Shown one piece after another: positions 50,749 to 64,000 of a DNA stretch of 64,000 bases (positions are counted from its first letter, which is position 1; every line of letters begins with the position of its first letter). This DNA comes from Leptolyngbya sp. NIES-3755 (GTDB lineage Bacteria > Cyanobacteriota > Cyanobacteriia > Leptolyngbyales > Leptolyngbyaceae): positions 1,559,030 to 1,623,029 of the forward strand of contig AP017308.1 of the NCBI GenBank assembly GCA_001548435.1. The letters run 5' to 3'. Both the position numbers and the translations under genes were made by a program. Below the pieces are notes generated by a model. The model was given only the letters and a program-made list of their open reading frames with translations. It made no database searches and was not told the origin of the DNA.

Positions 50749-52389
50749 CGAACTCGCCAAATGCTTCTCTAGCGTCGTTTGTGGAATTGCACCTTGTAAA
50801 TGGCTCCACGGCAAAACGCGATCGAGTTCCCAACGATCGAACACATAGTCATTCATATCCGGTAACTGTCCTTTGAGTTCTTTAAATGCTCGTCGGTAGC
50901 TACCAAGCGAATCTCCATAGTTCCGAACTAACTCTAAGAACTTAGAAAGTCGTCGATCGCCTCTTGATAGCAAAGCTTGAATGACTGACCAATTGTAGCT
51001 TTCAGGACGAAAATCGATGCCTTGCGATCGGAGTTGTTTCTGAAGAAATTGCAGGCGTTTTTCAGATTGTGGATTGACTCCAAACCATTGAAACGGTGTA
51101 TGTGATTTTGGAACAAACGTGCTGCAACCCAGTGTTAGTTTTAGTCCAGGAACCGCTTTTTTTAGCGATCGCATCATTGCAACCGTTTGATCTAAATCTC
51201 CCGATTCTTCTCCAGGAATTCCAACCATTCCATACAGCTTTAATGCACTTAATCCGCCTGCTTTAGCATTAATCGCAGCTTGAACAATCTCATCAGAGGT
51301 GAGCTTCTTATTGACAATCTGTCGAACGCGATCGCTACCACTTTCAACCGCGATCGTAATTGATCGAGCATCATGTTTCACCAATGTTTGAGTTAGCTTC
51401 TCAGTTACAGTGTTCGTTCTAACTGAAGATAAGCTTAATCTCACTTGATCGAATTGTGGCTGATTGAGATGATCTAGCAAGCTCTCGAATTCTGGATGCT
51501 GCGTCACAGATGCACCGAGTAAACCTAATCGATCAGTGAATTTCAAACCTTGTTCGATCGCAGGAATCAGAGAAGCTTCAACATCTGCAACTCGAAACGG
51601 TAATGTCAGATAGCTTGCCAGACAGAAGCGGCACATCTCTGGACAACTCCGCACCACTTCTACCATAAAGATATTTTCCCAAGCAGCTTTCTCTGTAACG
51701 ACTGTGGAAGCTGAAAGGGTGTTACCACGATAGGTTTGTTTCTGAACCTGAGCGGGAATTGAACTATCAATCGGTTTGATCTCAGCGATCGCACCATTTG
51801 GACTTTTGTAAGTTACCTCGTACAGGCTCGGAACGTATATTCCAGGAACTTGGGCGAGATGCTTGAGTTGAGTTTGTCGATCGGCATGACGAACTTCCTG
51901 ATACGCATTGATAAACGCATCGAGCAAAATCTCACCATCTCCAAGCAAAAACACATCAAAGAAGTCGGCATACGGTTCGGGATTTGCTGTGAGAACGGGA
52001 CCGCCACCGAAAACAATTGGATGATCCGATCGCTCTCGACTCCAAATCGGAATATCCAACGATTCCAACAGTCCCAAAATATTCACATAGTCCAACTCCC
52101 AAGACATTGAGAAACCGAGCAATTCTGGCTCAGACGGCAACGACTCATGCACATCGGTGAACAATCGGGCAACCTCTAAATCCGATCGCGCCGCCAATGT
52201 TGCCCAAACCACCTGATAACCGAGTGAAGTAATGCCAACACTGTACTCATTTGGAAATGCAAAAATAAGCGGAATTGCGTCTGCTTGAGGAGTCGCAGGC
52301 GTGAAGAGTAAACGTTCGGATGAGAAAGGAGAATTGACAACTCCCCTGCCTGAAGGCAAGGGGATTCTTGGTTCAATGGGACTACTCAT
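50731..52389 (-). CDS. B12-binding-type radical SAM protein with transposon-derived start
   Basis: A 552-residue radical SAM enzyme. The N-terminal domain (ITSLGYQVVWATLA to VFGGGPVLTANPEPYADFFDVFLLGDGE) is a cobalamin-binding-like fold, and the 4Fe-4S cluster motif is RSCPEMCRFCLASYL (~residue 238). Its product is unknown; homologues are widespread in cyanobacteria. Residues 1-19 (MSSPIEPRIPLPSGRGVVN) are encoded by the right end of the TnpB element. ATG 52389 overlaps the tnpB stop codon (ATGAGTAG) and uses GGGGAGGG within tnpB. No start codon exists between that end and the conserved part. Confidence 0.82.
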   Translation of the reverse strand: MSSPIEPRIPLPSGRGVVNSPFSSERLLFTPATPQADAIPLIFAFPNEYSVGITSLGYQVVWATLAARSDLEVARLFTDVHESLPSEPELLGFSMSWELDYVNILGLLESLDIPIWSRERSDHPIVFGGGPVLTANPEPYADFFDVFLLGDGEILLDAFINAYQEVRHADRQTQLKHLAQVPGIYVPSLYEVTYKSPNGAIAEIKPIDSSIPAQVQKQTYRGNTLSASTVVTEKAAWENIFMVEVVRSCPEMCRFCLASYLTLPFRVADVEASLIPAIEQGLKFTDRLGLLGASVTQHPEFESLLDHLNQPQFDQVRLSLSSVRTNTVTEKLTQTLVKHDARSITIAVESGSDRVRQIVNKKLTSDEIVQAAINAKAGGLSALKLYGMVGIPGEESGDLDQTVAMMRSLKKAVPGLKLTLGCSTFVPKSHTPFQWFGVNPQSEKRLQFLQKQLRSQGIDFRPESYNWSVIQALLSRGDRRLSKFLELVRNYGDSLGSYRRAFKELKGQLPDMNDYVFDRWELDRVLPWSHLQGAIPQTTLEKHLASSLAIAA

Positions 52390-52470
52390 GTAGCTTGCCC
52401 TCCCCAAAATTCATTGCGATGTGCCCCACCGCTGTATATCCACGTTGCAAAACCACTTGCGCCGCAGCCA
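52336..52470 (-). ncRNA. Candidate right-end (omega) RNA of the TnpB element
   Basis: In IS200/IS605 elements the guide RNA scaffold comes from the 3' end of tnpB and the right end. This region carries that position and the CCCCTTGCC/GGCAGGGG hairpin. The guide would be the bases following 52334 on the minus strand, inside the radical SAM gene. Extent and expression are inferred, not seen. Confidence 0.35.
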
Positions 52471-53572
52471 CATCTCGATTCGTTTCATACCCACACTCAG
52501 GACAGTTGTGTATTCGCTCAGACAGTTCCTTCTTGCCTGTGTGCGTCTGGCATCTAGGACAAGTTTGACTTGTTCCACTGGGATTGACCTGAGCGAAGTA
52601 TGCGCCCCGCTTGAAACAAACATGATTCAAGATATCGAGGAACTGTCCAAACCCTGCATCCAGTGTGTGCTTGCATAGCATCCCAGATGACATCGCTTTG
52701 AGATTCAAGTCCTCAGCAAACACAGTCTGCTCCTGGTCGCACAAATGATGAGCGGTTTTGAAATGAAAGTCTTTACGACGATTCGAGACGGTTTCGTGAT
52801 GCTTGGCAATTCGATGTTGCAGTTGACGAAACTTTCTAGAGCCTTTCTTCTTACGCTTCAGTTGACGTTGCAGCGATTTCAGCTTGCGGTGTCCATCCAC
52901 AAAGAATCGAGGTCGATCAATCAACTCACCATCAGACGTTGCCAAAAAATGCTCCAACCCTAAATCGATGCCCAGTCCGCGACCGGATGGTGAAGCTTGA
53001 GGAACTTCAACATCGCATTGCAACGTGAGCATCGCATAGTAGCCAGATGCTCGTTTCACAACCCGAATTTGCTTGACCTCAAAACCATCAGGAATGGGAC
53101 GAGACAAGTGTATTTTGACCAAACCAATCTTCGGAAGATTGACCCAATCCTCATCATCAAATCGTGTCACAGATTCTAAATTCAGTTGCGGAAACACAAA
53201 AGAGCGCATCCGTTTTTTGAATCTAGGGAATCCGTGCCCCCGCTCCCACATTGCAACAAACGCTGCTTCTAGTTGACGCAATACTTGTTGCAGGACATGG
53301 GTGTGAGGCAATTTCAATTCAGGAATTGATTGCTTTGCCGCTGCAAGTGTTTTGCACTGACGAGCAAAAGTGGGTCGGGGTGCATCAGCAGGAATGATGT
53401 ACTCCTGTTTGATGTTGCATGAATTGATATCGCATTTACGGGAATTAACCCAGTCTTTCCGCTCACGCAATGCGAAGTTGTAGACCTTGCGGCAAATATT
53501 AAGCCACTGGTCGAAGGTGTTGCGCTGTGTGTCGGTCGGAATGAGTTTGTACTCGTAGGTTAGATTCAGCAT
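52382..53572 (-). CDS. tnpB: TnpB RNA-guided nuclease
   Basis: A 396-residue TnpB. RuvC residues are Asp in GLGIDLGLEHFLATSDGE (~205), Glu in TVFAEDLNLKAM (~288) and Asp in NRDVAAAQVVLQRG (~367). The zinc ribbon has both pairs (CPRC and CPEC). TnpB uses a right-end RNA to cut DNA next to a transposon-adjacent motif and thereby helps keep the element. The protein looks intact. ATG 53572 is the conventional start. The last codons carry the ribosome-binding site for the downstream radical SAM gene. Confidence 0.93.
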   Translation of the reverse strand: MLNLTYEYKLIPTDTQRNTFDQWLNICRKVYNFALRERKDWVNSRKCDINSCNIKQEYIIPADAPRPTFARQCKTLAAAKQSIPELKLPHTHVLQQVLRQLEAAFVAMWERGHGFPRFKKRMRSFVFPQLNLESVTRFDDEDWVNLPKIGLVKIHLSRPIPDGFEVKQIRVVKRASGYYAMLTLQCDVEVPQASPSGRGLGIDLGLEHFLATSDGELIDRPRFFVDGHRKLKSLQRQLKRKKKGSRKFRQLQHRIAKHHETVSNRRKDFHFKTAHHLCDQEQTVFAEDLNLKAMSSGMLCKHTLDAGFGQFLDILNHVCFKRGAYFAQVNPSGTSQTCPRCQTHTGKKELSERIHNCPECGYETNRDVAAAQVVLQRGYTAVGHIAMNFGEGKLHE

Positions 53573-53770
53573 AAAACCAATATAGCCTTCATCTGAATAA
53601 ACAGATGTGTATTTATTCAAAATTCTCGATGAAGCTTTTGATTTTGTTTAGCTAAGGCTTGAAAGCCGTCCTAGAAGGACGGGGCTTGTACCCATTCTCT
53701 CGGTCACAGAAACACGATCGAGCATTAACTTCTTCAGCCTAGCACTCGATCGCGATCGCCGTATTGACAA

Positions 53771-56049: not shown

Positions 56050-57006
56050 CTACACTTCTACAGGTTCCTTCTCTTTCTGATTGAGCTTTCCTAGCACTGA
56101 AGTTTCTTCTGCAACTTGCTTGCCTTCATTCATCAAGTAATCGTAGAACGCTTTCGCGATCGCAGAAAGTTGCTTACCCGATGGATGCACCACATACCAG
56201 TAACGCTCGATCGGGAAGCCTTCAACATCCAAAATGGCAAGCTGATTGTTCACGCCCTCAAGCGCCAAAGTATGTTTCGAGAGCACAGACAAACCCATAC
56301 CGCCCGCGATCGCTTGTTTGATCGCTTCATTGCTTCCCAAGTCTAATTTGACTTTCATAGGTAAGCCTTGAGAATCAAACAGCTTTTGAACTGCTTTGCG
56401 CGTCCCCGATCCCGGCTCCCGCATAATAAACGGCTCTTCAGAAATTCGAGACAGCGGAATATTCTTCTCTTTTGTCAACGGGTGATTTCTTGGAGCCAGA
56501 ACCACTAGCGGATTTTCCATAAACGGGTCGCATTGTGCTTCTGAATCGTCTGGGAGTTGGCTCAGGATATACAAGTCATCCCGGTTGTCTGCCAAGCTGT
56601 CTAGCACGTATTGGTGATTCGTCACGGTGAGCGAAACATCAATGCCGGGATACCGCTGACAGAACGGACCCAAAATACGCGGAATCACATACTTTGCGGT
56701 AGTCACAACGGCGAGACGTAACGTTCCTTGCTTCAGACCCTTGAGATCCGCGATCGCAATCTGAAACTGATCCAACCGCTCAAACACATCGCGGCAGGTC
56801 GAATACAATTCTTTCCCGGCTGCGGTTAAATACAGCCGTTTTCCGACCTGCTCGAATAGAGGCAAGCCAACGGTCTTGGACAATTGCTTCACCTGCATTG
56901 AAACGGTGGGTTGCGTTAGAAACAGTTCTTCAGCCGCACGGGTAAAGCTGCTATGGCGAGCAACTGCTTCAAAAACCTTTAACTGGTGCAAAGTCGCATT
57001 CTGCAA
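56050..57006 (-). CDS. ccmR: LysR-type carbon regulator, CcmR/NdhR (RbcR-like)
   Basis: A 318-residue LysR-family regulator. The helix-turn-helix region is ATLHQLKVFEAVARHSSFTRAAEELFLTQPTVSMQVKQLSK, and the effector domain begins near residue 90 (GTLRLAVVTTAKYVIPRILGPF). This type includes CcmR/NdhR and RbcR, which control CO2-concentrating genes. The start is TTG 57006 with CAGGAGAG upstream. The nearby ndhF3-ndhD3-cupA operon is the classical CcmR target, favouring CcmR over RbcR, but the two are close. Overlapping dyads upstream suggest autoregulation. Confidence 0.88.
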   Translation of the reverse strand: MQNATLHQLKVFEAVARHSSFTRAAEELFLTQPTVSMQVKQLSKTVGLPLFEQVGKRLYLTAAGKELYSTCRDVFERLDQFQIAIADLKGLKQGTLRLAVVTTAKYVIPRILGPFCQRYPGIDVSLTVTNHQYVLDSLADNRDDLYILSQLPDDSEAQCDPFMENPLVVLAPRNHPLTKEKNIPLSRISEEPFIMREPGSGTRKAVQKLFDSQGLPMKVKLDLGSNEAIKQAIAGGMGLSVLSKHTLALEGVNNQLAILDVEGFPIERYWYVVHPSGKQLSAIAKAFYDYLMNEGKQVAEETSVLGKLNQKEKEPVEV

Positions 57007-57292: not shown

Positions 57293-57461
57293 TTTCTTAT
57301 GGCTCAGCATAATAGACCGAATGCTTTTTCTTTGAGCCAAAAGCAACAGAACTTTAATTCCCAAAATCAGCATTCTCATTGTAAAGTTCAATGGGGTGAC
57401 TCCAGTTGTAAGGTTCTGTACTGCGCTTTGTCCCGTTACCCTCTACCCTTGGATCGCAACT

Positions 57462-57863
57462 ATGGCAGATATTGTTGATATTGCAGTTGGCGCTGGCTCG
57501 TTCAATACGCTTGTCACCGCAGTAAAAGCAGCGAATTTGGTCGATGCGCTGAAAAGCCCAGGTCCGTTCACGGTGTTTGCACCGAATGATGATGCGTTTG
57601 CAAAACTCCCACCGGGAACGATTACAACGCTTGTCCAAAATATTCCACAACTGTCCCGCATTCTGACGTTTCACGTAGTTGCTGGAAAGTATATGAAAGC
57701 CGATTTGGAAAAGCTAGAATCATTGCCTTCTCTGGAAGGTTCACCGATTCCGTTTCACTTCGAGGATGGTTTTGAAGTGAAGAATGCAACGGTATTAGCA
57801 GCAGATATCGAAGCAGATAACGGTGTAATTCATGTGATTGATACCGTTATTCTGATGGGCTAG
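57462..57863 (+). CDS. Fasciclin-domain protein, CupS-like
   Basis: A 133-residue single fasciclin (FAS1) domain, with the usual [37 protein letters not shown] (H1 box) and [12 protein letters not shown] (H2 box). There is no signal peptide. CupS, a fasciclin-like subunit, joins NdhD3/F3 and CupA in the inducible NDH-1 CO2-uptake complex. This gene is convergent with cupA, not downstream of it as in Synechocystis. Other cyanobacterial fasciclins are similar, so CupS is a context-based proposal. Confidence 0.8.
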
Positions 57864-60846: not shown

Positions 60847-62745
60847 TTAACGCTGAACATTCATCACAATTTCAGTCGGATTCTGTGGGAACAGCGAGAC
60901 GGTGACGTGCGAGAGGAAAGGCAGACTCAGTAAAACACTGATCAACGCGATTCCAAATACGATCGTCAACATATAAAACTGCGATTGTCCTGATGTGCTG
61001 TATCGCAAGTTCCGACCACTAAAAATGGTCAATGCTCCAAACAGATTCAGTCCGCCATCTACCAGATATTTATCAAACCAAGAGGTGATTTGAGAAACGA
61101 GCGCAACGATAAATACGATGCTGCTCCGGTAAAGACTTGGCGTGTAGAAGTCGTTTGCCAACAGATCTTGCAAGCCTTTCAAGGGAAATACCACAGGTTT
61201 CGCAATGTTCTTGCTGGTGTAAACGATCGCACCGAGAGCAATTCCCGTAATCGTTGACCAAATCAGCAACAGAGCGAGATCGGTATTGATTTCAGCCCAG
61301 GTTGGAAGAAGATTCAAAGACTGAAGAATCAGCGGCAGATGAAGCGTAAAGCCCATCATAAAGATCATCGGCAATGCCATCCAGTAGTGAATCTCTGGCG
61401 ATCGCTGTGACATTTGCTTCGCTTCACCGGTGAACAGCAGACAGAAGACTCGTGTGACTCCAAAGGCTGCAAACGCATTCACCAGTAGAACAATGCCAAC
61501 AATCCAAGACTGAGTGCCCCAAACGCCTTCACAGATTTTCAGCAGCGCCCAAAATCCACCAAACGGAGGGAAAGCGACCAATCCAGCGAGACCAATGAGG
61601 AAACTGAAGCCCGATACCGGACGACGCGACCATAATCCACCCAACATGGTTACATCTTGCGTGATGCTATTCCAAACAACTGCACCACCGCCCATAATCA
61701 GCAATGCAGAAGCAAGCGCATGACTCAGAACGAGTAGAAGTGCCGCTTCAGGTTGCTGAGTTCCGATCGCAATAAAGACCAAGCCCATGTAAGCGGTGAC
61801 TAAGTAGGATTGAGTCCGCTTAATGTCGATTTGAGCGAGTGCAATTAATGATCCACCGATCGCACTAACCGCACCGATAAAGACTGTCGTTCCAAGAACT
61901 GTGGGAGACAGAGCCAGTACAGGTTCCAACTTGTACATGACCCAAGCTCCAGTCGCGACCACAACCGAGTTTCTCAAGATCGAAGCCGGAACTGGACCTT
62001 CCATCGCTTCATCCAGCCACAAGTGCAGTGGGAATTGAGCACATTTACCCATCGGACCTGCAATCAGCGCTAATCCAACTAAAGTGATCACTTTCGGATC
62101 GACTTGAGCCGTTTTTGCCCATTCTGCCAATTCGCTGAAATTCCAAGTTCCAGCCAGAGGTAACAGTGCCACCACACCCATCAGCAAAAACAGGTCCCCA
62201 ATTCGCTTGGTCAGGAACGCATCTCGCGCACCCGTAACCACGAGCGACTGATTGAACCAGATGCCAACGAGTAAGTAGGTTGCAAGCGTCAGAATTTCCA
62301 GAATGAAGTAGCTGAAGAATAGAGAGTTACACAGTACGAGTGCAGTCATTCCCGCCTCGAACAGACCGAGCAGCGAGAAAAATCGCGCCCAACCCCAATC
62401 CATTTCCATGTAGCCGAAAGCGTAGGTTTGTGCCAGAAGATTAATTCCAGAAACCAACACGATCGCGCCCACGCTCAGAGTGGAAATCTCGATCGGGATT
62501 GTTAAATTCAGTCCTGCAACATTCAGCCAAGGAATCAAAATCTCTTGAGGAGGCTGACCCCAGGTGGCAGGAAGCGCAAATGAAGCATGAATAAATGTAG
62601 CCAAGGACATGATTGCATTCAGGTATCCGGAAGGACGAGGACCTGTCCGCCGCGTAATTCCCGGAAACCAGAGTGCCGAAAGGATAGCGCCGATAAGGGC
62701 GTAGCAAGGAATTAACCAAATGCTCTGAAGCAAAGGGTGAGCCAT
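60847..62745 (-). CDS. ndhF3: NDH-1 subunit NdhF3
   Basis: A 632-residue NdhF-family membrane subunit, first in the operon with ndhD3 and cupA. Features are MEMDWGWARFFSLLGLFEAGM, FFSYFILEILTLATYLLVGIWF, KCAQFPLHLWLDEAMEGPVPASILRNS and DIKRTQSYLVTAYMGLVF, with a long C-terminal extension (~505-632) carrying the lateral helix. It forms the distal end of the membrane arm with NdhD3, where CupA attaches. Expression is expected to rise at low CO2; a CcmR-like site lies upstream. Confidence 0.95.
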   Translation of the reverse strand: MAHPLLQSIWLIPCYALIGAILSALWFPGITRRTGPRPSGYLNAIMSLATFIHASFALPATWGQPPQEILIPWLNVAGLNLTIPIEISTLSVGAIVLVSGINLLAQTYAFGYMEMDWGWARFFSLLGLFEAGMTALVLCNSLFFSYFILEILTLATYLLVGIWFNQSLVVTGARDAFLTKRIGDLFLLMGVVALLPLAGTWNFSELAEWAKTAQVDPKVITLVGLALIAGPMGKCAQFPLHLWLDEAMEGPVPASILRNSVVVATGAWVMYKLEPVLALSPTVLGTTVFIGAVSAIGGSLIALAQIDIKRTQSYLVTAYMGLVFIAIGTQQPEAALLLVLSHALASALLIMGGGAVVWNSITQDVTMLGGLWSRRPVSGFSFLIGLAGLVAFPPFGGFWALLKICEGVWGTQSWIVGIVLLVNAFAAFGVTRVFCLLFTGEAKQMSQRSPEIHYWMALPMIFMMGFTLHLPLILQSLNLLPTWAEINTDLALLLIWSTITGIALGAIVYTSKNIAKPVVFPLKGLQDLLANDFYTPSLYRSSIVFIVALVSQITSWFDKYLVDGGLNLFGALTIFSGRNLRYSTSGQSQFYMLTIVFGIALISVLLSLPFLSHVTVSLFPQNPTEIVMNVQR

Positions 62746-62889
62746 CGAAATTCACCTCTAGATAGCAAGCTGAATCGAACCAGATGAATGAGAGAACCGT
62801 CTTCCAGAAACAAGCAGTGCCCAACTTACCGCCATAGCGCCCTGGAAATGATTTTATAAATTCTTAACTAATTCGGTAGTATCTATAAT

Positions 62890-62911
62890 GTTTATCACAC
62901 TTAAGCATTGA
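62890..62911 (-). promoter_or_regulatory. Possible CcmR/NdhR binding site upstream of ndhF3
   Basis: On the minus strand TCAATG-N10-ATAAAC. The published NdhR motif, as I recall it, is TCAATG-N10-ATCAAT; the first half is exact and the second matches at 4 of 6 bases with the right spacing. It lies ~145-165 bp upstream of the ndhF3 start codon. Confidence 0.45.
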
Positions 62912-63031
62912 AAGAAACACGAGGGGTTCTTCAAGTCAAGTGCTGAAATCCAGTAACAACGGCATTTATAGTCTATTTATTATGGTGGCGATTGGTTGAA
63001 TCAATAATTATCAATACTAAATCCAACCATT

Positions 63032-63063
63032 GGAAATCTCTATAGTAAAAGCAGAGATTTTCC
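63032..63063 (-). terminator. Hairpin downstream of the DUF120-like gene
   Basis: GGAAATCTC and GAGATTTTCC pair around a 13-nt loop, 48 bp past the stop codon of the reverse DUF120-like gene. No T-run follows, but it could separate that unit from the ndhF3 promoter. Confidence 0.4.
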
Positions 63064-63110
63064 ATCAATTGATTAATTAATCCTACGATCGGTATTTCAT
63101 CACTTAAAAT

Positions 63111-63563
63111 CTATTTATCAAAAATCCGAATTTCGTTAGTGTTGATGCGGAGTGTAACGCGATCGCCATATTTTAAGTCGGGAATCAGAGGCGCGATCGC
63201 TTCTACGATCGATGGATTCTGAAAATGTCCAATCTTCGTCTCCGGATGCGGATAATAAACTAATCCATCAAAAGCTTGATTCTGATAGAGAATTTGGCAA
63301 GGTGTAAACGAGAAATCTTCTGGAGGAAATCCTTCAGCCCAATGCACATTTCTGAACGTATGTTGTGGCGAAATGAGTTCAAATTTGTTTGGGCTGATAT
63401 TGATGTTTAGTGTACCGGGAAAAAAATCGTCAAGTTCTAGACCCAATTCTTTAAAGAAAGGAGTTTGCATTTCGATCGTGCCTTTCGGATACGGGCTGCT
63501 GTCTGCTCTTCCCGAAGCAACCCCATATCCAGCTTGAACAATTCCATCAATCTGTCTAATCAT
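63111..63563 (-). CDS. DUF120 / CTP-dependent riboflavin-kinase-like protein
   Basis: A 150-residue protein resembling the archaeal CTP-dependent riboflavin kinase (RibK, DUF120). It starts IDGIVQAGYGVASGR, has FFPGTLNINI around residue 50 (the family's GTLN motif), then FDGLVYYP around 100 and VEAIAPLIPDLKYGDRVTLRI at the C-terminus, matching the archaeal end IEIIAP...L.DGD. The order and spacing fit the whole domain. Bacterial riboflavin kinases normally belong to the unrelated RibF family. The gene overlaps the CupA/CupB-paralogue gene by 8 bp. Catalytic activity is not proved. Confidence 0.7.
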   Translation of the reverse strand: MIRQIDGIVQAGYGVASGRADSSPYPKGTIEMQTPFFKELGLELDDFFPGTLNINISPNKFELISPQHTFRNVHWAEGFPPEDFSFTPCQILYQNQAFDGLVYYPHPETKIGHFQNPSIVEAIAPLIPDLKYGDRVTLRINTNEIRIFDK

Positions 63564-64000
63564 CGCAAGACTGAAAAGTGATCAATCTCGATTCTAGAAG
63601 TTTATCCATCCAGCCTTCAAGGTAAGCACGATTCTCGGCTTGCTCTTTTGGATTTTGGGTCTCGATCGAATATGGAGCCAATCCCAACATTGCCGCTGTT
63701 GTCACGCAAAACATTGACCTTTGGAAACTGAGACAGATTTTCACTCGCACATCGGTTTCACCTCTAGGCAACCCCCGATAATAATCGAGCAGATAATCCG
63801 GTAAATAGTGCATCATATCCTGCATCAACAATGTCGGCGGAATTCCCCCACCTCCAATGGGCAACGGATCAGCATGAAGCGCACCGTAGGAAAATCGCTC
63901 TTGTTCTAGTGGAATCTGTCGCGCTTGAGCGTTGTAAGAAATCGTTCCCATGAACGGAAAAGACTTAAAGAAAACCGCTTCAACATAAGGAACGGCTGTA
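63556..64000 (-). CDS. Second CO2 hydration protein (CupA/CupB family), C-terminal part
   Basis: The last ~148 residues of a CupA/CupB paralogue, read through the right window edge. It aligns with CupA of this window along its whole visible length: PYVEAVFFK, SYNAQARQIP, YGALHADPLPIGGGGIPPTLLMQDMMHYLPDYLLDYY, SFQRSMFCVTTAAM. Identity is about half by eye, so it is a separate paralogue. It could be CupB, the constitutive partner of NdhD4/F4; those genes would lie outside. It overlaps the DUF120-like gene by 8 bp, so the two are translationally linked. Confidence 0.88.
   Translation of the reverse strand, partial: TAVPYVEAVFFKSFPFMGTISYNAQARQIPLEQERFSYGALHADPLPIGGGGIPPTLLMQDMMHYLPDYLLDYYRGLPRGETDVRVKICLSFQRSMFCVTTAAMLGLAPYSIETQNPKEQAENRAYLEGWMDKLLESRLITFQSCDD

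Follow-up and report, generated by a model that had tools for sequence, protein, structure and literature searches.

A 150-residue protein encoded near the end of the window, by which we mean the whole 64,000-nucleotide stretch of Leptolyngbya sp. NIES-3755 DNA that was analysed (contig AP017308.1, positions 1,559,030 to 1,623,029), is, by sequence comparison and structure prediction, a diverged member of the DUF120/RibK superfamily, with the cradle-loop barrel of the archaeal riboflavin kinase RibK. To judge from the alignments, it belongs to a separate sister family and not to RibK proper, and this family is mostly cyanobacterial as far as sampled. The gene lies directly behind cupB, and we lean towards reading its product as a RibK-fold, Mg-nucleotide-dependent small-molecule kinase or binder that was recruited once into the cupB operon.

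A preliminary description of this DNA had proposed by eye that the whole protein follows the order of archaeal RibK, and this proposal held up. The window protein contains the motifs G7-I-V-Q-A-G12-Y-G14, P49-G-T-L-N53, I123-A-P125 and G133-D134, and a single BLASTP comparison with the archaeal kinase MJ0056 gave 26% identity over 148 columns (E 4e-6). Using hhalign, the profile of 54 family sequences aligned with six RibK/DUF120 proteins over 120 columns, covering residues 4-144, with an E value of 2.2e-7 and a probability of 93.5. The observed score of 47.0 was not reached by any of 200 column shuffles (maximum 20.1), and the reversed profile scored 14.7; the match was weaker when only two RibKs were used (E 3.1e-5, probability 73). 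The AlphaFold2 model of the window protein had a mean predicted local distance difference test score (pLDDT) of 94.2 and a predicted template modelling score (pTM) of 0.89. In agreement with the sequence comparisons, the top five Foldseek matches in the PDB were all MJ0056 (E 1.4e-7 to 1.0e-6, template modelling score 0.54-0.59 by query length). The sixth was Thermoplasma RibK (E 0.042), and the next protein followed at E 0.059 with a probability of 0.15. Chance resemblance to RibK is ruled out by Foldseek, by BLASTP against MJ0056 and by the hhalign shuffles.

We compared individual residues in one MAFFT alignment of the 54 family members with the six RibK/DUF120 proteins, using MJ0056 numbering. 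The 54 rows derive from 60 loci, from which L001, L036 and L039 were dropped as copies of L060, L002 and L005; also dropped were L030, in which the frame is broken, and the fragments L059 (fused) and L058. Of 14 positions invariant in RibK, those kept in the family are G10 (G12 in the window protein, 54/54), G38 (G50, 53/54), T39 (T51, 54/54), N41 (N53, 54/54), P92 (P105, 54/54) and E103 (E121, 53/54). Gly5 (48/54) and Leu31 (42/54) are mostly kept, Phe27 (31/54) and Gly12 (21/54) partly, and P35, I78, R111 and D118 are lost. The kept residues include Thr39 and Asn41, which we take to be the metal ligands of MJ0056 (the Thr-x-Asn of GTLN), and Glu103, presumably the flavin-site glutamate. The GxGxG loop and the LRE segment, which we assume to bind cytidine diphosphate (CDP) in RibK, are both changed: the loop has its second glycine in 21 of 54 members and alanine at its third position in all 54, and Arg111 has no conserved counterpart, the surrounding LRE segment being shorter. 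Thus, the metal site seems to be kept and the CDP site not. The family also has 22 invariant columns across the 54 members, including W75, E82, F84-S85-F86, Y103, P105-H106 and T109-K110. As far as the alignment can tell, YYPHPETKxxHFQ is a new motif and the signature of the family, and its five extra residues (PETKx) fall at what we take to be the flavin-contact region of RibK.

With the metal site seemingly retained and the CDP site not, we infer that the protein is an enzyme, or a binder, that uses a different donor or a different ligand. Such a protein would still bind an Mg-nucleotide and would either transfer phosphate to a small molecule or only sense one; its donor would not be CTP, or else the donor site would be altered. 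In the window's lineage, the gene would have ended up behind cupB, where coupled translation is probable, and its product would thus be made together with the CupB-type CO2-uptake complex, yet be no general component of it.

Several points weigh against this interpretation. The earlier DUF120 assignment fell short at the level of the single protein, as PF01982 gave 15.3 bits (E 0.019) against a curated cut-off of 25, although the model does match 22 of the 54 family members at E ≤1 (best E 3.3e-5), leaving 32 without a match. PF01982 is the sole Pfam match of the window protein, which is not matched by PF01687 (RibF), and no further PF01982 match was found at E ≤1 in the Leptolyngbya sp. NIES-3755 genome. 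The NCBIfam RibK model NF010762 likewise missed its threshold, with 13.2 bits against a cut-off of 279. The Foldseek superpositions have a root-mean-square deviation of about 5 Å, so the loops differ, and PDB sequence searches with the window protein and with the family profile found no RibK, indicating that the family has drifted far. No assay of any family member was found in the literature, and the data would suit a role in structure or sensing alone about equally well. Finally, the linkage to cupB holds in all eight genomes of the genus, which could point to a genuine part in CO2 uptake within it.

To place this linkage, we surveyed a phylum sample of 292 genomes, 139 of them in the window's class and 153 sharing only its phylum. 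The gene is carried by 33 of these genomes and adjoins cupB in 3. A contig scan with a single sequence, which reaches close relatives only, gave 29 named loci, with cupB directly upstream in five (L031-L034 and L036). Some genome handles and named contigs have identical rows and are seemingly the same genomes, and the counts of the two surveys were not summed. Within the window's taxonomic family, cupB adjacency was seen in 10 of 20 carriers, made up of all eight genomes of the window's genus and both genomes of genus g3. The other ten have no CupB match within the DNA examined; in G301 and G328 the gene sits at a contig end and is not fully judgeable. Conservation next to cupB, which the preliminary description had made a point to check, was found in the window's genus and g3 and was not seen in the other carriers sampled, these two contig-end cases being open to doubt.

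A tree was built from 65 rows, each trimmed to no more than about 150 residues, and excluded L002, L071, L077, L087, L089, L090, identical rows and the relic L088. All nine cupB-linked rows lie on one side of one branch (support 99/97), and none of 500 label shuffles was as low as the observed linkage pattern, so one origin of the linkage suffices. The likely ATG overlaps the cupB stop by 1-17 bp in all eight same-genus genomes, which suggests that translation of the two genes is coupled in the window's genus; the intact g3 copy begins 6 or 27 bp after the cupB stop.

The gene is real and under purifying selection. Among the eight same-genus genomes, the ratio of nonsynonymous to synonymous substitution rates (dN/dS) was 0.07-0.21 in 21 of 28 pairs, a rough range because dS exceeds 1 in many pairs; the other seven were skipped for unequal length. 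Between the protein and its seven orthologues in the genus, identity is 70-84%, lower than for CupB (79-90%) or NdhF3 (92-97%) at the same loci. A spurious open reading frame (ORF) is ruled out by dN/dS.

The preliminary description had gone on to suggest an accessory of CO2 hydration, and as a general claim this did not survive the survey. ChpXY, the protein family of CupA and CupB, is present in 121 of the 292 genomes and in 32 of the 33 carriers, but 89 of the 121 lack the RibK-like gene, one carrier (G276) has no ChpXY match, and most carriers have unrelated neighbours beside the gene. The gene is thus probably not a general part of CO2 uptake. Within the class it occurs in 32 of 121 genomes with ChpXY and 1 of 18 without (Fisher p 0.07, uncorrected for ancestry), and this co-occurrence is no more than a hint. 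A role in CO2 hydration would be a local possibility rather than a property of the family, and the case for it is weak; we regard a role limited to the window's lineage as doubtful.

In its most specific form, such a role would make the protein a lineage-specific accessory of the CupB-type complex (NDH-1MS'), one that binds a flavin or nucleotide and either tunes CupB-NdhD4-NdhF4 or assists in its assembly, much as CupAR does for the CupA complex. The gene is the fourth of ndhF4-ndhD4-cupB in the window genome, its codons overlap those of cupB throughout the genus with a linkage shared by g3, it is under purifying selection, and in Nodosilinea (L043) it lies about 2.3 kb from cupS-cupA-ndhD3-ndhF3. 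There is also a precedent, since the available text of PMC11456788 describes cupAR as a small gene, co-transcribed with ndhF3-ndhD3-cupA, whose product is both a subunit and a regulator of the CupA complex. However, the gene lies elsewhere in most sampled carriers and occurs in G276 without any ChpXY match. In one g3 genome, all that is left near a contig edge, after a cupB that is still open, is a relic interrupted by two in-frame stops, and 22 of the 42 genomes in the window's family lack the gene (20 have it) though all 42 have a CupB/CupA match. On this evidence we consider an accessory role unlikely.

The protein might instead be a second genuine riboflavin kinase, dependent on CTP or ATP, which makes flavin mononucleotide (FMN) beside RibF, perhaps under special conditions. 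The predicted fold, the metal-site residues and the glutamate aligned with the flavin-site glutamate are all kept, as this would demand. Against it, the CDP-binding segment is lost, the GxGxG loop is altered, and the five extra residues, with Thr109 and Lys110 invariant, stand where RibK presumably contacts its flavin. Furthermore, RibF (PF01687) is present in 288 of the 292 genomes, including all 33 carriers, and the single match in the window's own genome is another gene (C1:2288239-2288607). These results rule out replacement of RibF and bear out the earlier view that the protein is no housekeeping FMN enzyme; a second riboflavin kinase seems to us less likely still than a CupB accessory.

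Two readings in which the barrel acts as a sensor are less probable again. The fold could, in one lineage, serve the CupB complex as a fourth component that senses nucleotides or flavins and adjusts CO2 hydration to their state in the cell, while elsewhere it is a kinase of another substrate, a combination we find improbable. Lowest in our estimate is a non-catalytic binding or regulatory protein that keeps the barrel as a ligand sensor: the partial loss of the nucleotide site, the scattered contexts and the patchy presence would agree with it, but the 22 columns that are invariant over 54 sequences, among them the metal-site pair and those of the dense new motif, resemble an active site more. 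We return to the Mg-nucleotide-dependent kinase or binder as the preferred interpretation.

The features of the locus are given in Table 1.

Table 1 Positions of the RibK-like gene, its key residues and flanking genes, in window coordinates unless prefixed L060 (a longer stretch of the same genome)
Feature	Position	Strand	Length	Basis or remark
RibK/DUF120-like gene	63111..63563	-	150 aa	ORF; ATG start; 8-bp cupB overlap
cupB, 3' part, ChpXY family	63556..64000	-		PF10216, 234.6 bits; cut by window end
Complete cupB	L060:7586-8722		378 aa
Thr51 codon	63411..63413	-		Aligns with MJ0056 Thr39; invariant 54/54
Asn53 codon	63405..63407	-		Aligns with MJ0056 Asn41; invariant 54/54
Family-specific motif YYPHPETKxxHFQ	63219..63257	-	Residues 103-115	Family alignment
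ndhF3 (context only, not part of the feature)	60847..62745	-		TIGR01960, 926 bits

The first 8 bp of the RibK-like gene are the end of cupB, the next gene upstream. On the minus strand, the longer stretch shows the order ndhF4-like (611 aa), ndhD4-like (503 aa), cupB and the RibK-like gene. Downstream, on the same strand, a 365-bp gap is followed by ndhF3, then by an NdhD-type gene and finally by cupA, the other ChpXY gene of the cluster. Both the overlap with a CupA/CupB-family gene and the position beside an NDH-1 CO2-uptake operon were thus described correctly at the outset. Two ccmK-like genes lie divergent from ndhF4 in the longer stretch, followed by ccmL-, ccmM- and ccmN-like genes; the same ccm block is found in related loci, with an EutN_CcmL domain by Pfam in L031 and L033. 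The ChpXY and ndhF3 names rest on Pfam and NCBIfam, whereas ndhD3, ndhD4, ndhF4, ccmK, ccmM, ccmN and the distinction of cupA from cupB rest on recognition by eye and synteny. No terminator-like site was found in 62700-63600, promoter-like sites there were at shuffle level (3 compared with a mean of 2.3), and Rfam gave no match in 62600-63700.

Other genes near the CO2-uptake cluster were named by eye. A fasciclin-like, CupS-like gene (57396-57863, plus strand) lies opposite to ndhF3-ndhD3-cupA and convergent with cupA, an arrangement also present in L032, L033 and L034; in Synechocystis, cupS follows cupA on the same strand. A LysR-type regulator gene beside the cluster (56050-57006, minus strand), kept in L032 and L033, could be of the NdhR/CmpR type. 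Further along, 52382-53620 (minus strand) encodes a 412-aa TnpB-like protein of an IS200/IS605-type element.

Away from cupB, the gene has varied neighbours. In the Nodosilinea locus, the cupS/cupA/ndhD3/ndhF3 genes are downstream on the other strand. The remaining 23 of the 29 named loci have no reference CO2-uptake gene nearby save a weak NdhD-like match in L035, some of the contigs being short; weak CcmM-like matches (29-37%) occur in L038, L040 and L042. Neighbours include ScpB and DUF760 in Crocosphaera, TerC and DUF6464 in family f19, whose small genomes are probably picocyanobacterial, and elsewhere DUF985, QueF, GST, NlpC/P60 and others. One copy is on a Pseudanabaena plasmid, annotated as hypothetical. 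Among the 33 carriers, G183, G185 and G268 have fragments with in-frame stops, and in G257 the gene is in two pieces in different frames. In some f19 genomes the RibK-like protein has a C-terminal extension of about 64 residues (L022:1939-2130, L025:2046-2309), which other f19 genomes encode as a small ORF of its own directly after the gene; it has no Pfam match, and a search for it found it in 1 of 117 genomes. In a Prochloraceae bin (L059:9983-11872), the first 50-odd RibK-like residues run into a protein that appears by eye to be von Willebrand-like, so that the gene is a chimaera or has been rearranged. Contig L042, which was binned as Tatlockia, has the gene order of Chlorogloea and Aliterella; it probably comes from a cyanobacterium and was misbinned.

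A member also occurs outside cyanobacteria, in a single Shewanella isolate, S. surugensis (L057:9980-11709), where it lies just upstream of an L-2-hydroxyglutarate oxidase gene and has an amino acid racemase gene as another neighbour. The oxidase's longest ORF overlaps the RibK-like gene by 4 bp, though its family match begins only at residue 33. The oxidase gene was found at no other carrier locus examined. We rejected a link between the two genes, as the window's own genome has no match for the oxidase at E 1e-60 and, within the class, 13 of 33 carriers have one compared with 40 of 106 non-carriers.

Spread by phages was likewise rejected. Among 50,697 phage records there was no match for the window protein at E 0.01, nor for the L022 member or MJ0056 at E 1, and of five stretches in viral contigs that fit a pattern none was confirmed. 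Matches to PHROGs were weak only (best E 0.0012, in 2 of 54 members), and the best predicted viral structure match was an Indivirus riboflavin kinase (E 0.0058). The available text of a cyanophage paper (PMC3037559) names a DUF120 gene in five phages, and no connection from it to the RibK-like family could be made.

These results assign a conserved cyanobacterial family its fold, suggest what chemistry is likely and place it in evolution. If its members are enzymes, RibK-type kinases would fall into two branches, the second of them using another donor or substrate in bacteria that possess RibF as well; should the cupB-linked copies act on CO2 uptake, they would be a new player in how the CupB complex is regulated. 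The survey is also a caution against inferring function from one operon, since the linkage looks like a single event. That linkage is already in print, while the nature of the protein is not: no description of the RibK-like family was found in the open-access literature.

Among known systems, the closest in position is Leptolyngbya boryana CZ1. According to the available text of a 2023 paper (PMC10536570), both of its CO2-uptake operons, NDH-1(3) and NDH-1(4), lie beside ccm genes, and a hypothetical gene, Q2T42_08970, overlaps cupB by the same 8 bp. Judged by its position, it is very probably the orthologue of the window gene. In structure, the nearest relative is MJ0056 (PF01982; PDB 2VBU, 2VBV, 2OYN and 2P3M), which shares with the window protein the predicted fold, the order of elements over nearly the whole length, the GTLN motif and counterparts of Pro105 and Glu121. 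The window protein differs in having three inserts, of 7 residues ahead of the Phe pair in the first helix, of 3 residues ahead of PGTLN and of 5 residues within PHPETKxxHFQ. It also lacks the LRE segment, has an altered GxGxG loop and scores below the Pfam cut-off. The archaeal RbkR proteins (Thermoplasma TA1064 and haloarchaea; entry 3cta) have a catalytic domain of the same family as MJ0056 but, as the accessible part of PMC8305020 describes, are bifunctional, being also gene regulators with an N-terminal helix-turn-helix that the 150-residue window protein lacks. Finally, a plasmid of Azoarcus KH32C carries a DUF120 gene (L064:3974-4411; WP_015451796.1) that adjoins UbiX and UbiD genes within a cluster for phenylphosphate carboxylase, where it perhaps supplies FMN for prenyl-FMN. 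Here too a bacterium has placed a DUF120 gene in a specialised cluster, but the protein is nearer to RibK, with the GxGEA loop and an IRE segment kept and no PHPETK motif.
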